The notes under the pieces: generated by a model
What the model saw: the letters and a program-made list of their open reading frames with translations, nothing else
The model's database searches: none
Told to the model about the DNA's origin: nothing
Source of the DNA: Methylobacterium sp. SyP6R
GTDB taxonomy: Bacteria > Pseudomonadota > Alphaproteobacteria > Rhizobiales > Beijerinckiaceae
Direction of reading: 5' to 3'
DNA: 64,000 bases
NCBI RefSeq assembly: GCF_019216885.1
Contig: NZ_JAAQRC020000001.1
Span: forward strand, 5,645,501-5,709,500
Shown: positions 3,747 to 10,825 of the stretch, in pieces
Layout of the letters: every line of letters begins with the position of its first letter
Numbering within the stretch: position 1 is the stretch's first letter
Position numbers and translations under genes: made by a program

Positions 3747-4595
3747 ATGACCCTTCCCCTCGACCGCGCGGCGCTGGACGCCCTGGCGGAAGACCTGGCC
3801 TCGCGCCTGCGTCCCCTCGCCCTGCCGGAGCGCCTCGCGCTGATCGACGCGACGGTGGACGGCCGCCTCGTCTTCACCACGAGCTTCGGCCTGGAGGACC
3901 AGGCCCTCACCCACGCCCTCCGGATGGCGAAGTCGCGCGCCGAGATCGTGACGCTCGATACCGGCCGGCTCTTTCCCGAGACCTACGACACCTGGGCCGA
4001 GACCGAGGCGGCTTACGGTTTCCGCATCCGCGCCTACGCGCCGGAGCGCGAGGCGGAGGAGCGGTTCGTCGAGGAGTCGGGCATCAACGGCTTCCGCCAT
4101 TCGGTGGCGGCGCGCCAGGCCTGCTGCGGCTTCCGCAAGGTGGAGCCGCTCGGCCGGGCGCTGACCGGCGCCGCGGGCTGGCTCACCGGTTTGCGCGCCG
4201 GCCAGTCGGCCAACCGCGCCGAGACGCCGCTGGCGGAAGCCGACCATGCTCGCGGCCTGATCAAGCTCAACCCGATCGCCGACTGGACCCGCGAGGTCTT
4301 GGCCGAGCTGATCCACGAGAACTACGTGCCCTACAACGTGCTGCACGACCGCGGCTTCCCGTCGATCGGCTGCGCGCCCTGTACCCGCGCGGTGAAGGTC
4401 GGCGAGCCCGAGCGGGCCGGCCGCTGGTGGTGGGAGCAGGCGGGCAAGCAGGAATGCGGCTTGCACGTCTCGGGCGCCCCCGGCAGCGAGATCCGGCAAG
4501 GACAGGAGCCCGCCGCCTTCGAGCCGGCACAGTCCGCCACTAGACAATCGTCCGAATCGTCCTCGACCAAGACCAACCCGGAGCTGGCCGCATGA
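3747..4595 (+). CDS. cysH: Adenylylsulfate (APS) reductase, thioredoxin-dependent
   Basis: This 282-residue enzyme reduces activated sulfate to sulfite. The PP-loop region is near the N-terminus ([11 protein letters not shown]). The two cysteine pairs that bind a 4Fe-4S cluster are present (CC at 126-127 and C209/C212 in CAPC), as is the catalytic cysteine at 237 in the C-terminal ECGLH motif. The Fe-S cysteines mark it as the APS-using type rather than a PAPS reductase, and no APS kinase (CysC) domain is found anywhere in the operon, which agrees. It is the first gene of the cys operon; its stop overlaps the cysD start (ATGA at 4592-4595). Confidence 0.95.
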
Positions 4596-5527
4596 GCGCC
4601 GCCCTCAAAGTCCGTACCGACGGCCTCGACCGCCTGACCCACCTCCAGCGCCTGGAGGCCGAGAGCATCCACATCATGCGGGAGACGGTCGCCGAGACCG
4701 AGAACCCGGTGATGCTGTACTCGATCGGCAAGGATTCCTCGGTTTTGCTGCATCTGGCGCTCAAGGCGTTCGCGCCGGGCCGGTTGCCGTTCCCGCTGCT
4801 GCACGTCGACACGACCTGGAAGTTCCGCGAGATGATCGCCTTCCGCGATCGGCGCGCCGAGGAACTCGGCCTCGACCTCCTGGTCCACACCAACCCGGAC
4901 GGGCTCGCCCGCGGCATCGGGCCGGTGAGCCACGGCTCCGAGGTCCATACCGACGTGATGAAGACCCAGGCCCTGCGCCAGGCCCTCGACAAGCACAAGT
5001 TCGACGCGGCCTTCGGCGGCGCCCGGCGCGACGAGGAGGCCTCGCGGGCCAAGGAGCGCATCGTGAGCTTGCGCACCGCGCAGCACCGCTGGGATCCGAA
5101 GCGCCAGCGCGCCGAGCCCTGGCACCTCTACAACATGAAGAAGCAGCGCGGCGAGTCGTTGCGCGTCTTCCCGCTGTCGAACTGGACCGAGCTCGATATC
5201 TGGCTCTACATCGAGCAGGAGAACATCCCGATCGTGCCGCTCTATTACGCGGCCGAGCGCCCGGTGGTGAGCCGCGACGGGCAACTGATTATGGTGGACG
5301 ACGAGCGGCTGCCGCTGAACCCCGGCGAGACCCCGGAGATGCGTCTCGTGCGGTTCCGGACGCTCGGCTGCTACCCGCTGACCGGGGCGGTGGAGAGCGA
5401 CGCCGCGACCCTGCCGGAGATCATCGGCGAGACGCTGGCCGCCCGCACCTCCGAGCGGCAGGGCCGGGTGATCGACAAGGACGGCGCCGGCGCCATGGAG
5501 CGCAAGAAGCAGGAAGGCTACTTCTGA
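4592..5527 (+). CDS. cysD: Sulfate adenylyltransferase small subunit
   Basis: This 311-residue ATP sulfurylase catalytic subunit makes APS from sulfate and ATP, with GTP hydrolysis by CysN driving the reaction. The PP-loop SIGKDSS is at residues 44-50, followed by the family blocks [19 protein letters not shown] and the C-terminal [16 protein letters not shown]. Full length for the family. The start overlaps the cysH stop by 4 nt, and the stop overlaps the next start by 1 nt, so translation is probably coupled along cysH-cysD-cysN. Confidence 0.97.
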
Positions 5528-7944
5528 TGACCGTGCACCAATCCACCCGCGCCTTCGGCTACGAGGCGTTCCTCGCCGCCCACCAGCGCAAGGAAGTGCT
5601 GCGGTTCATCACCTGCGGTTCGGTCGACGACGGCAAGTCGACCCTGATCGGGCGCCTGCTGCACGACACCAAGCAGATCTTCGACGACCAGGTGAGCGCG
5701 CTGGAGCGCGATTCGCGCCGCCACGGCACGCGGGGTGGGGAGCTCGACCTCGCCCTCCTCGTCGACGGCCTCCAGGCCGAGCGCGAGCAGGGCATCACCA
5801 TCGACGTCGCCTACCGGTTCTTCTCGACCGAGCGGCGCTCCTTCATCGTCGCCGACACCCCCGGCCACGTCCAATACACCCGCAACATGGCGACCGGCGC
5901 CTCGACCGCCGAGGTTGCGGTGCTGCTGGTGGATGCCAGGAAGGGCTTGAGCCCGCAGACACGGCGCCACGCGCTGCTGGTCTCGATGCTGGGCATCCGC
6001 CGCGTCGTGCTGGCGGTCAACAAGATGGACCTGATCGGCTGGTCGGAAAGCCGGTTCGAGGCGATCCTGGCCGAGTTCCAGGCCTTCGCGAAGGACCTGC
6101 GCTTCACCGACGTCACCGGCATCCCGCTCTCGGCGGCGAACGGCGACAACGTCGTGCTGCCGGGCACCGCCGCGCCCTGGTACACCGGCGCGCCGCTGCT
6201 GCAATACCTCGAGGAGGTGCCGGCCCATGTCGAGGAGGAGGTCGCCCCGTTCCGCATGGCCGTGCAGTGGGTCAACCGGCCGAATTCCGACTTCCGCGGC
6301 TTCTCGGGGCTGATCGCGTCGGGCGCGGTCGCGGTCGGCGACAAGGTGGTGGTGGCGCCCGCCGGCACGCCGTCGACGATCGCCCGGATCTACACCTATG
6401 ACGGCGACCTGGAGCGGGCCATCGCCGGCCAGTCGGTGACCCTGGTGCTGGCCGACGAGGTCGATGCCTCGCGCGGCAGCGTCATCACCGCGGCGGCGCA
6501 ACCGCCGATCGTCAGCGACAAGCTGGAAGTCCGGCTGTTCTGGGCCAACGAGGCCGAACTGACGCCGGGCGCGACCTATCTCGCCAAGATCGGCACGGTG
6601 ACGGCGAATGCCGTGGTCGAGGCCGTGCGTGCGCGCATCGACACCGAGACCGGGCAGGGCGTGCCGGCCGGCTCCTTGAGCGCCAACGATATCGGCGACG
6701 TGACGCTCAGCCTCGACCGCAAGGTCGCGGTCGACGCCTATCGCCAGAACCGCGACACCGGCAGCCTGATCCTGATCGACCGGGCGACCACCGACACCGC
6801 GGCTTTGGGCCTCGTCCAGGCATCCCAGGCGGCTCCGCGGGGCGGGACCAAGGCCGAGGCTCCGAGGGCCGAGGCGAAGACCGAGGCCGCTCCGGCCGGT
6901 GGCCTGCTCGGCTCCCTGAAGCGGCTGTTCCGCGGCTCGTCCCTGGCGCTCGCCGCCGGCGCCTCGCTTCTGGCGCTCGCCGGGGCCCCCGCCCCGGCGC
7001 GGGCGCAGACGCTGCTCAACGTCTCCTACGACCCGACCCGGGAGCTGTACCGGGCGATCGACGCGGCCTTCGCCAAGGAGTGGAAGGCCAAGACCGGCGA
7101 GACCGTGACGGTGCGCGCCTCCCACGGCGGCTCCGGCGCCCAGGCCCGCTCCGTCATCGACGGGCTGCCGGCCGACGTGGTGACGCTGGCGCTCGCCAGC
7201 GACATCGACGCCATCGCCGCCCGCTCGAAGAAGCTGCCGGCCGACTGGCAGAAGCGGCTGCCGTTCAACTCGACGCCCTACACCTCGACCATCGTGTTCC
7301 TCGTCCGCAAGGGCAACCCGAAGGCGATCAAGGACTGGGACGACCTGGTGAAGCCGGGAATCCAGGTCATCACCCCCAATCCGAAGACCTCGGGCGGCGC
7401 GCGCTGGAACTATCTGGCGGCCTATGCCTATGCACTGGCCAAGAACAACAACGACGACGCCAAGGCGAAGGACTTCGTCACCGCCCTGTTCAAGAACGTG
7501 CCGGTGCTCGACACCGGTGCACGCGGCGCCACCACCACCTTCGTGCAGCGTGGCCTCGGCGACGTGCTGATCGCCTGGGAAAACGAGGCGTTCCTCGCCG
7601 ACGAGGAATTCGGCAAGGGCAAGTTCGACATCGTCGTGCCCTCGCTGTCGATCCTGGCCGAGCCGCCGGTGGCCCTGGTCGACGTGAACGTCGACCAGAA
7701 GGGCACCCGCCGCCAAGCGGAAGCCTATTTGCAGTTCCTCTACACGCCGGAAGCGCAAGCCATCATCGCCAAGAACTTCTACCGACCGCGCGACGAGTCG
7801 GCGGCCGCGAAGGAGGACCTGGCCCGCTTCCCAAAGCTGAAGCTCGTCACCATCGACGACACTTTCGGCGGCTGGGCCAAGGCCCAGAAGACCCATTTCG
7901 ACGATGGCGGCGTGTTCGACGCCATCCTGAAGTCCCGGCAATGA
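5527..7944 (+). CDS. cysN: CysN-Sbp fusion: ATP sulfurylase GTPase joined to a sulfate-binding protein
   Basis: One uninterrupted 805-codon frame. Residues 1 to about 430 are CysN, the GTPase subunit of ATP sulfurylase (G1 GSVDDGKST 31-39, DTPGH 110-114, NKMD 165-168, then EF-Tu-like beta barrels). Residues about 431-458 are an Ala/Glu/Lys/Pro linker. Residues 464-493 look like a complete Sec signal peptide (LKRLFRG, an Ala/Leu core, APARA before Q494). Residues 494-805 are a full-length periplasmic sulfate-binding protein of the Sbp/CysP family ([25 protein letters not shown]). No ATG or GTG exists at the junction; the codon where an Sbp start would sit is CTG (6916), and TTG at 6805 is the nearest other candidate. 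A CysN with an inward-facing N-terminus and an exported binding protein is odd: it could be a membrane-anchored fusion, be cut by signal peptidase, or have internal initiation. A sequencing error at the junction is also possible. Confidence 0.9.
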
Positions 7945-8810
7945 GCAACGCCGCGGCCCTGCCCGCGGGGCGGGGAGCGGCCCGCTTCCGGCGACCGAGC
8001 GCGCTGCCGGGTTTTCGCCTGACCTTCGGGATCACGCTCACCTATCTGACCCTGCTCGTCCTCCTGCCGCTGGCGGTGCTGCTCCTGCGCGCCGCCAGCG
8101 TCGGCCCCGCCGGCCTCTGGGCGCTGATCACCGATTCCCGCAACCTCGCGGCGCTCAAGACCTCGTTCGGCCTGTCGCTCGCGGCCGCCGCGATCGACGC
8201 GGTGTTCGGGCTCCTGATCGCCTGGGTGCTGACCCGCTACCGGTTCCCCGGAAGGCGGATCATCGACGCGCTGGTCGATCTGCCCTTCGCGCTGCCGACG
8301 GCCGTGGCGGGCATCGCGCTCGCCAGCCTCTACGCGCCGAACGGCTGGCTCGGCGAGCCGTTGATGGCTCTTGGCATCAAGGTCGCCTACACGCCGCTCG
8401 GCATCCTGGTGGCGCTCGTCTTCGTCGGCCTGCCGTTCTGCGTCCGCACGGTTCAGCCGCTGGTCGCCGAGATCGACAGGTCGAGCGAGGAGGCGGCCGC
8501 CATCCTCGGCGCCTCGCGCTTCCGCGCCCTCGTCACGGTGATCCTGCCGCCCCTGATCCCGGCGATGCTCACGGGCTTCGCGCTCGCCTTCGCCCGGGCG
8601 GTCGGGGAATACGGCTCGGTCATCTTCGTCGCCGGCAACCTTCCTTACGTCTCGGAGATCGCGCCCCTGCTGATCGTGATCAAGCTCGAGGAGTTCAACT
8701 ATTCCGGCGCCACGGCCATCGCCGCCGTGATGCTGCTGATGTCGTTCACCGCGCTTCTCGCCATCAACCTCTTGCAGGATTTCAGCCGCCGTAGGTTCGG
8801 GCATGTCTGA
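7941..8810 (+). CDS. cysT: Sulfate ABC transporter permease CysT
   Basis: This 289-residue inner-membrane subunit, with about six helices, forms half of the sulfate/thiosulfate channel. It carries the binding-protein-dependent permease loop for CysA contact ([25 protein letters not shown]). The ATG at 7941 overlaps the fusion stop by 4 nt (ATGA); an upstream extension in this frame would only read the binding-protein gene out of frame. Its direct position behind the Sbp domain and ahead of cysW and cysA is the standard transporter order. Confidence 0.95.
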
Positions 8811-9687
8811 GACCGCCGTCCCCTCCATCCGCTCCGTCTCCCGCGGCCCGCACGCGGCATTGACCGAGCCGCGCCCGGTCCGCATCGCGCTGACGCTGAC
8901 GGCGATCGGCTTCCTGGCCCTGTTCCTGCTGCTACCGCTCGCGGTGGTGTTCGTCGAGGCGCTGAGCAAGGGTCTGGGGCCCTACCTCGCCAGCTTCGCC
9001 GAGCCCGATGCCTTGGCGGCGATCCGCCTGACGCTCCTCGTCGCGGCGATCGCGGTGCCGCTCAACGTGGTCTTCGGGCTGTGCGCCTCCTGGGCCATCG
9101 CCAAGTTCGACTTCCGCGGCCGTAACCTCCTCATCACCCTGATCGACTTGCCGTTCTCGGTCTCGCCGGTGGTCGCCGGCCTGATCTACGTGCTGATCTT
9201 CGGGGCGCAGGGGCTGTTCGGACCGTTCCTGCAGCGCCACGGGATCGAGATCATCTTCGCGGTGCCGGGCATCGTGCTCGCCACGGTGTTCGTCACCTTC
9301 CCGTTCGTCGCCCGCGAACTGATCCCCTTGATGCAGGACCAGGGCACCACCGACGAGGAAGCCGCGTTGACCCTAGGCGCCAGCCCATGGCGGGTGTTTT
9401 GCACCGTGACCCTGCCCAACGTGCGCTGGGCGCTGCTCTACGGCGTGCTCCTGTGCAACGCCCGGGCGATGGGCGAGTTCGGGGCAGTCTCGGTCGTGTC
9501 GGGCCGCATCCGGGGGCTCACCAACACCATGCCGCTCCACGTCGAGATCCTGTACAACGAGTACAATTACGTGGCGGCGTTCGGCATCGCCTCGCTGCTG
9601 GCGCTCCTCGCGCTCGTCACCCTGGCGGGTAAATCTTTCCTGGAATGGCGCCACGCCGATGCGCTGGCCGGACGCGGAGCCCACTGA
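8803..9687 (+). CDS. cysW: Sulfate ABC transporter permease CysW
   Basis: This 294-residue partner permease of CysT has multiple membrane helices and the coupling motif [28 protein letters not shown]. It ends with the CysW-typical segment [23 protein letters not shown]. The start lies 8 nt inside cysT, which implies translational coupling. With CysT it passes sulfate from the binding protein to the cytoplasm, powered by CysA. Confidence 0.95.
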
Positions 9688-9688
9688 G

Positions 9689-10825
9689 ATGACGGCAGGA
9701 TTCGCTCCCACCGCCCTGTCCCTGCGCCGCGAGGCGTCCGCCCGCCCGGTCGAGGCGGCCTCCGCCGACCGCCTGCGCCAGGCCGGCACGTCGGTCCGGG
9801 TCGACGGCATCGTCAAGCGCTACGGCGGCCCTGGCCCGGCGGCGTTGGAGGGCGTCAGCCTGACGATCGAGCCGGGCGAGCTCCTGGCGCTGCTCGGCCC
9901 GTCCGGCTCCGGCAAGACGACGCTCCTGCGCGTCATCGCCGGCCTCGAGATCCCGGATGGCGGCCGGGTGTTCTTCGGCTCGCAGGACACCACCGACATC
10001 CCGGTGCAACGCCGCGGCGTCGGCTTCGTGTTCCAGCACTATGCCCTGTTCCGCCACCTGACGGTGTTCGAGAACATCGCCTACGGGTTGCGCTCGCGCC
10101 CTCGCGCCCACCGCCCGAAGGAGGACGAGATCCGCCGCCGGGTCGAGCGCCTGCTGGAGCTGGTGCAACTGCCCGACCTCGCCAAGCGCTTTCCGGGCCA
10201 GCTTTCCGGCGGCCAGCGCCAGCGGGTGGCGCTCGCCCGCGCGCTCGCGGTCGAGCCGTCGGTGCTGCTCCTCGACGAGCCGTTCGGGGCGCTGGACGCC
10301 CAGGTGCGCAAGGACCTGCGGCGCTGGCTGCGGGAGATCCACCGCGAGACCGGCCAGACCACGATCTTCGTCACCCACGACCAGGACGAGGCTTTGGAAC
10401 TCGCCGACCGGATCGCGATCCTCAACAAGGGCCGCATCGAGCAGGTCGGTGCGCCGCACGAGGTGCAGGACCACCCGGCCTCGCGCTTCGTGATGTCCTT
10501 CGTCGGCGAGACCGCCCGCCTGGCCGCGGAGGTCGCGGGTGGGGAGGTCCGGGTCGCCGGCCGCACCGTGATCGCGGCGCAGGCCGGCTGGCCGCAGGGG
10601 CCGGTCGATCTCTGCCTGCGTCCTTGGGACCTCACGGTCGGGCAGGGCCCCGGCACGCTGCCCGGCACCGTGCGCGAGTGGCGCCGCACCGGGCGGGGCA
10701 CCGTGGCGGAAATCCTGCTCGACGGCGCCGAGGCCCCGGTCGAGGTGAAGGTGACGGATGTCTACGAGCCGGGCGACCGGGTGGCCCTGGCGGTGGGCGC
10801 GGCGCGGGTTTTCCCGCGGGGATGA
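9689..10825 (+). CDS. cysA: Sulfate ABC transporter ATPase CysA
   Basis: This 378-residue ATPase drives sulfate import. Walker A is GPSGSGKTT, the signature [15 protein letters not shown] and Walker [13 protein letters not shown], with the switch histidine in [10 protein letters not shown]-terminal TOBE-like regulatory domain of about 110 residues follows. I chose the ATG at 9689, one base after the cysW stop, with GGAG about 9 bases upstream; a start at 9659 would sit inside cysW. A 35-residue leader before the first strand is longer than in E. coli CysA. It is the last gene of the operon. Confidence 0.95.

Follow-up and report, generated by a model that had tools for sequence, protein, structure and literature searches.

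We analysed a 64,000-nucleotide stretch of the Methylobacterium sp. SyP6R genome (contig NZ_JAAQRC020000001.1, positions 5,645,501 to 5,709,500 of the forward strand; the window), in which one gene joins cysN, coding for the GTPase subunit of ATP sulfurylase, to sbp, coding for the periplasmic sulfate-binding protein. The gene is a single plus-strand frame (5527 to 7944) with an ATG start, 805 codons and no internal stop. A preliminary description of this DNA had read it as one frame covering both proteins, with a linker and a signal peptide-like segment between them, and the open reading frame and the NCBIfam assignments, with which the Pfam domains agreed, confirmed this. The CysN models NF003478 (residues 6 to 436, 610 bits against a cut-off of 590) and TIGR02034 (587 against 336) matched the same protein as the sulfate Sbp models NF008022 (residues 482 to 802, 508 against 288) and TIGR00971 (480 against 156). 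With phmmer, the first half matched the ATP sulfurylase GTPase 1zun_B (E 6e-139) and the second half the sulfate-binding proteins 5um2 (E 1.5e-135) and 1sbp (E 1.2e-134). The same three structures were the top Foldseek matches of an AlphaFold model, which was itself weak (mean predicted local distance difference test score [pLDDT] of 65.8; predicted template modelling score [pTM] of 0.45) and of low confidence over most of residues 1 to 127 and 434 to 500. The frame is uninterrupted and conserved, and its CysN and Sbp domains are both intact; between them lie a linker, a CysN-type tail and a predicted signal peptide.

The fused gene lies in a tight plus-strand operon with the order cysH-cysD-[cysN::sbp]-permease-cysW-cysA (Table 1). 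This is the order given in the preliminary description, and the profile searches supported it, the cysT position being occupied by a BPD_transp_1 permease. On the CysN side, cysD ends at 5527 and overlaps the fused gene by one base; on the Sbp side, the ATG of the permease at 7941 overlaps it by four. Upstream, on the minus strand, are a cysJ-like flavoprotein gene (609 bits, under the cut-off of 668) and an Lrp/AsnC regulator. The guanine-plus-cytosine content at third codon positions stays high throughout the fused gene (0.94 in CysN, 0.92 in the junction and 0.93 in Sbp).

Table 1. Parts of the fused gene and genes of its operon (coordinates within the window)
Feature	Coordinates	Strand	Basis
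CysN part, ATP sulfurylase GTPase subunit (residues 1-432)	5527..6822	+	NF003478, TIGR02034 above cut-off; 1zun_B E 6e-139; 14 GTPase-motif positions
Linker (residues 433-458)	6823..6900	+	alignment of nine fused Methylobacterium genomes; model without structure there
CysN-type tail, putative basic n-region of signal peptide (residues 459-470)	6901..6936	+	tail ends non-fused CysN
Predicted signal peptide, hydrophobic core and c-region (residues 471-493), end A-R-A	6937..7005	+	signal-peptidase-type motif 25/25; hydropathy
Mature sulfate-binding protein (residues 494-805), stop 7942-7944	7006..7941	+	NF008022, TIGR00971 above cut-off; 5um2, 1sbp E ~1e-135
cysH	3747-4595	+	NF002537 above cut-off
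cysD	4592-5527	+	NF009214 above cut-off, 540/413 bits
Permease in cysT position	7941-8810	+	PF00528 (BPD_transp_1)
cysW	8803-9687	+	TIGR02140 above cut-off
cysA	9659-10825	+	TIGR00968 above cut-off

The same arrangement was found in other bacteria. In a protein search in which 8,000 candidates were scored and 120 listed, the top matches were full-length fusions forming at least 24 other protein clusters, with whole-alignment identities of 58 to 95%. At least nine of these clusters lie at 83 to 95% identity, including six from Methylobacterium (M. platani, M. variabile, M. crusticola, M. oryzihabitans and strains 174MFSha1.1 and 4-46), and at least 15 more, which we take to be mostly metagenomic, at 59 to 69%. 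The window protein and 24 other clusters are referred to below as the 25 fusions. Searches of 727 different genomes (G000-G726) with fused queries also ranked full-length matches first. They placed the fusion in at least 11 genomes: at least 9 of 52 in the window's genus (G000, which is the window's own genome, G012, G015, G020, G024, G036, G165, G278 and G286) and at least 2 of 48 in a second genus (G251 and G356). Judging from protein names, the first genus (g1) is Methylobacterium and the second (g56) probably Microvirga. A contig scan with P0012 as the query gave no fusion among the best 80 loci, where the best segments spanned CysN only. In the source names met, the fusion is called a sulfate adenylyltransferase, in one case with a name beginning with "Bifunctional," and the receptor half is therefore easily overlooked.

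This distribution bears on two points of the preliminary description. One option considered there was a local sequencing or assembly error that had removed a stop and a start; as the same frame occurs in at least 24 other clusters and 10 other genomes, we reject this explanation and give it practically no chance. The other was the domain order CysN then Sbp in relatives, which those clusters and genomes indeed display. Rather than all relatives having separate genes with identical flanks, both kinds occur: relatives with separate genes in the same gene order (L049, L056 and L163-L170) have approximately 0.7 to 8 kb between cysN and sbp.

The preliminary description had noted no second sbp or cysN in the operon, and this holds for the whole genome, which gave one TIGR00971 match and one CysN match above cut-off. 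More broadly, the only sulfate Sbp above cut-off was that of the fused gene in 11 of 11 fused genomes, and the same was true of CysN in all 10 that were searched with the CysN profile. G356, which lay outside that search, has a second CysN match at 50% identity. SulP-family matches were present in 9 of 10 fused genomes (none in G251), making a second sulfate route possible in those nine. Across the nine fused Methylobacterium genomes, the ratio of nonsynonymous to synonymous substitution rates (dN/dS) was 0.14 in mature Sbp, and the two CysN parts gave 0.13 and 0.30. By this measure, both halves are under purifying selection, and probably both are needed. All 14 GTPase-motif positions checked in the CysN half are invariant in the 25 fusions. 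Of seven sulfate-ligand positions in the Sbp half, numbered after 1sbp, six are kept in all 25 and the seventh in 23.

The junction (6823 to 7008) consists of a linker, a CysN-type tail and a hydrophobic stretch that ends in PAPARA before Q. Its length varies by whole codons among the nine fused Methylobacterium genomes. A signal-peptidase-type motif, A/V/L-x-A/S/G before Q/D, is present in all 25 fusions, including those at 58 to 60% identity, and the 19-residue hydropathy of the segment ranges from 1.22 to 2.11. Motif and hydropathy together predict a signal peptide, which is internal rather than N-terminal, with about 460 residues preceding it. Some fused tails read R-R-L-F where that of the window's genome reads K-R-L-F, an observation that touches on export by the twin-arginine translocation (Tat) system.

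The origin of the tail can be seen in relatives without the fusion. Non-fused Methylobacterium-type CysN proteins (L007-L020 and L025-L039) end, after a variable linker, in a conserved MinD-like tail such as GGLLAGIKRLFGG. A single pattern fits 76 of 79 distinct tails, which were collapsed from 106 sequences in which some genes had been counted both as protein and as locus. The hydrophobic moment of 57 of the 76 exceeded that of shuffled sequences (p<0.05, uncorrected), although the pattern itself favours such spacing. For comparison, two MinD-family proteins of the window's genome end in KRSLLGKLFPRRAA and KRSLFGKLFTRRAA. The fusion retains the CysN-type tail, and the hydrophobic core of the predicted signal peptide of Sbp follows it directly. 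From this arrangement, the tail appears to double as the basic n-region of that signal peptide, and this would account for the lack of a start codon for Sbp.

Other CysN proteins of relatives end in DUF2061 (PF09834, "predicted membrane protein") or in other hydrophobic hairpins. Those with a C-terminal DUF2061 or like hydrophobic domain include P0094-P0097, P0101, P0102, P0104-P0112, P0114-P0117, P0119-P0121, L062-L069 and L163-L170; the DUF2061 assignment was precomputed for most, confirmed for P0115 and otherwise made by eye.

We also examined the history of the fusion. In CysN trees, fused and non-fused Methylobacterium sequences formed one clade (support 100/100), with a fused side (91/53) and a split side (100/97). 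This clade is nested in a clade of 48 rows (100/97), 27 of which are fused, and a quick CysN tree required at least six changes between the fused and split states. Four non-fused rows stand among fused ones (P0094, P0098, P0099 and P0113); judged by eye, P0113 may be a frameshifted fusion. Topology tests rejected one clade of all 27 fused CysN halves, of the 17 non-Methylobacterium fused rows, and of all fused rows together with the 17 split Methylobacterium rows. The Sbp halves of the fused proteins are of two types. One clade of all 27 was rejected by the approximately unbiased test (p-AU 0.0004), and one of 24, leaving out L024, P0024 and P0025, was not (p-AU 0.615). The Sbp-half tests and the test of all 27 CysN halves were run without the long-branch row L058, and the later CysN tree and its two topology tests without three long-branch rows. 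Since the 27 Sbp halves do not form one clade, the fusion either arose more than once or swapped its Sbp half. The nearest rows outside the Methylobacterium clade are fused, which favours a fused ancestor and a subsequent split in the majority of Methylobacterium species. With backbone bootstraps of 51 to 86 inside the 48-row clade, however, support is too low to claim a direction.

According to our model, to which we assign a probability of roughly 60%, the gene encodes a two-compartment precursor from which Sbp would be exported by Sec and cut by signal peptidase after residue 493, CysN being kept inside. The CysN half would be translated first, as part of a single precursor. The internal signal peptide would then engage the Sec translocon with its CysN side remaining cytoplasmic, the Sbp half would cross the membrane, and signal peptidase I would cleave after residue 493. 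The freed Sbp could serve CysTWA. In the remaining 493-residue CysN, the basic helix and the signal remnant may hold the protein, at least temporarily, at the inner face of the inner membrane, where it would pair with CysD, perhaps beside CysTWA. Cleavage into two proteins was among the options of the preliminary description and is the one that the sequence favours.

Several points weigh against this model. Export, cleavage and membrane location are predicted from the motif, the hydropathy and analogy to known systems. Receptors are commonly made in excess, and it would be unusual for an enzyme and its receptor partner to be locked at 1:1. Greater conservation of the tail and signal region than of the linker was not borne out by dN/dS: in the nine fused Methylobacterium genomes, the tail and signal region gave 0.42 to 0.43 versus 0.43 for the linker, with 0.34 for the c-region. 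Of the 76 tails, 14 (RWVFGGI type) are not amphipathic by hydrophobic moment (p 0.33 to 0.40). In addition, some junctions contain possible starts for a separate Sbp. G251 (L024) has an in-frame ATG at -45 behind AAGGAGG (-11.7 kcal/mol), G356 (L162) has one at -38 behind a ribosome-site-like sequence (-7.4), and 5 of the 15 mostly metagenomic fusions have a Met in the junction. In some lineages, internal initiation may thus supply separate Sbp in addition.

If internal initiation were general, most Sbp would be made separately with its own signal peptide, and the long product would be a side effect of reading CysN. The two ATG codons of the second genus are placed like the separate Sbp starts of the same genus; initiation there is plausible, and these genes are possible intermediates between two genes and one. 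In Methylobacterium the picture is different. As the preliminary description stated, the window's genome has no ATG or GTG in the junction, and the 85 codons before mature Sbp contain a single TTG (6805, position -69), with an anti-Shine-Dalgarno (anti-SD) score of +0.4. This TTG, one of the two sites proposed in the preliminary description, occurs in one of the nine fused genomes. The other was the Leu codon at 6916, where a start would give a neat signal peptide and the anti-SD score of -4.9 lies among those of the real starts in the operon (cysH, -2.5; cysD, -5.8; cysN, -6.5; cysW, -3.3). This score alone decides nothing, as real starts score from -2.5 to -6.5; comparable scores occur at 23 to 25% of positions inside CysN. 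The codon is CTG in seven genomes, TTG in one and CTC in one, and it falls in the stretch matching the C-terminal tail of CysN in relatives without the fusion. An internal CTG or TTG start in Methylobacterium is therefore weakly supported at best. In three of the nine (L002, L005 and L023), the 85 codons are free of ATG, GTG and TTG, and no usable start of these kinds is common to all nine. The other six have scattered ones: GTG at -43 and TTG at -32 in L004, with weak anti-SD scores (-3.0 and -4.8), and GTG at -22 in L022 (-2.5). The only recurring one, a GTG at -5 in three genomes, is too late and would leave no signal peptide. Moreover, nothing would terminate CysN before Sbp. We consider it unlikely that most Sbp arises in this way.

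The protein could also remain uncut, as a type II membrane protein that is tied to the importer and has its CysN half in the cytoplasm and its Sbp half on the outer side. The single conserved frame agrees with such a protein, and in several members the hydrophobic segment is long enough to anchor, but the small residues of the cleavage site are kept in all 25 fusions, even the most distant, which makes this improbable. A further alternative overlaps with our model and differs in function alone: the precursor would be processed as proposed, its joining being a neutral by-product of gene adjacency in the operon; uptake and activation would not be coupled, and CysN would be effectively soluble. 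The patchy distribution of the fusion speaks for neutrality, as do close relatives that manage without it and the proximity of their two genes in one operon. Against it stand more than one origin or exchange, persistence down to 58% identity, and the recurrence of membrane-type C-termini on the CysN of relatives. On balance, we find neutral joining doubtful while worth keeping in view.

Parts of this layout have precedents. In Bradyrhizobium and its relatives, the cytochrome b/c1 precursor FbcH is cleaved in the cell. It yields two proteins from one frame, as proposed for the CysN-Sbp gene, with an internal A-x-A-type signal peptide before the exported half. However, the first half of FbcH is an integral membrane protein and that of CysN-Sbp a GTPase known as soluble, and the two are not related by family. 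Such a layout is present in G384 and G459 (L227 and L228, respectively), two genomes from the same order as the window, where cytochrome b, an internal signal peptide ending in A-K-A or A-R-A, and cytochrome c1 share one 706-residue frame. We did not find an FbcH-like gene in the window's genome, in which cytochrome c1 has its own 303-residue frame. CysNC, in which CysN is fused to adenosine 5'-phosphosulfate (APS) kinase, likewise carries a second pathway function at the CysN C terminus, but its partner is a cytoplasmic enzyme instead of a periplasmic receptor reached via a signal peptide. CysN-DUF2061 proteins (e.g., P0115 of Microvirga sp. KLBC 81) share a membrane-type C terminus but lack the receptor and the cleavage motif, and they would keep their anchor. 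Substrate-binding domains fused to ABC permeases also join a binding protein to a part of its pathway; there the partner is the transporter, and here the first cytoplasmic enzyme. Finally, E. coli MinD has a C-terminal membrane-targeting helix. The CysN tail is a short, basic and hydrophobic C-terminal segment of like composition, although the proteins are not homologous and membrane binding of the CysN tail is putative. In the literature searched, which lay mostly outside subscription journals, we found no description of a CysN-Sbp fusion, and nothing on polyproteins with an internal signal peptide or on FbcH with signal peptidase; the searched literature also held nothing on DUF2061 together with CysN. 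Making two proteins by way of an internal signal peptide is a known layout. What is unusual here is that one gene joins a cytoplasmic enzyme to a periplasmic receptor acting in its own pathway, an arrangement that is sensible only with an internal signal peptide.

The conserved tail suggests a possible membrane location in these bacteria for ATP sulfurylase, which is treated as a soluble enzyme. We tentatively extend this, with less than even confidence, to the proposal that the ATP sulfurylase of this bacterial family is a membrane enzyme. CysN would be held at the inner membrane by a MinD-like tail, by DUF2061 or another hairpin, or by a signal remnant, and sulfate would be activated on leaving CysTWA. 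In the polyprotein, the CysN tail would have become the start of the Sbp signal peptide, directing the two partners in equal numbers to one membrane. Against a general membrane rule, the 239 distinct C-termini that were classified include 63 of the CysNC type, and a few other CysN proteins (e.g., L099, L121 and L151) have no obvious membrane segment. Because fused and non-fused sister species share one genus, these bacteria offer a natural test of physical coupling between uptake and activation.

Some further observations concern the same genes. One Sbp relative, P0092 (474 residues), has its C-terminal part twice in tandem, possibly an assembly artefact. An antisense open frame of 807 residues (5518 to 7941, minus strand) spans the entire fused gene and was taken as a by-product of high GC content, not as a gene. 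CysH scored above the cut-off of the phosphoadenylyl-sulfate reductase model (243 against 154) and narrowly missed that of the APS reductase model (232 against 235), and it contains CC and CxxC-type cysteines, which we take to be a feature of APS reductases.

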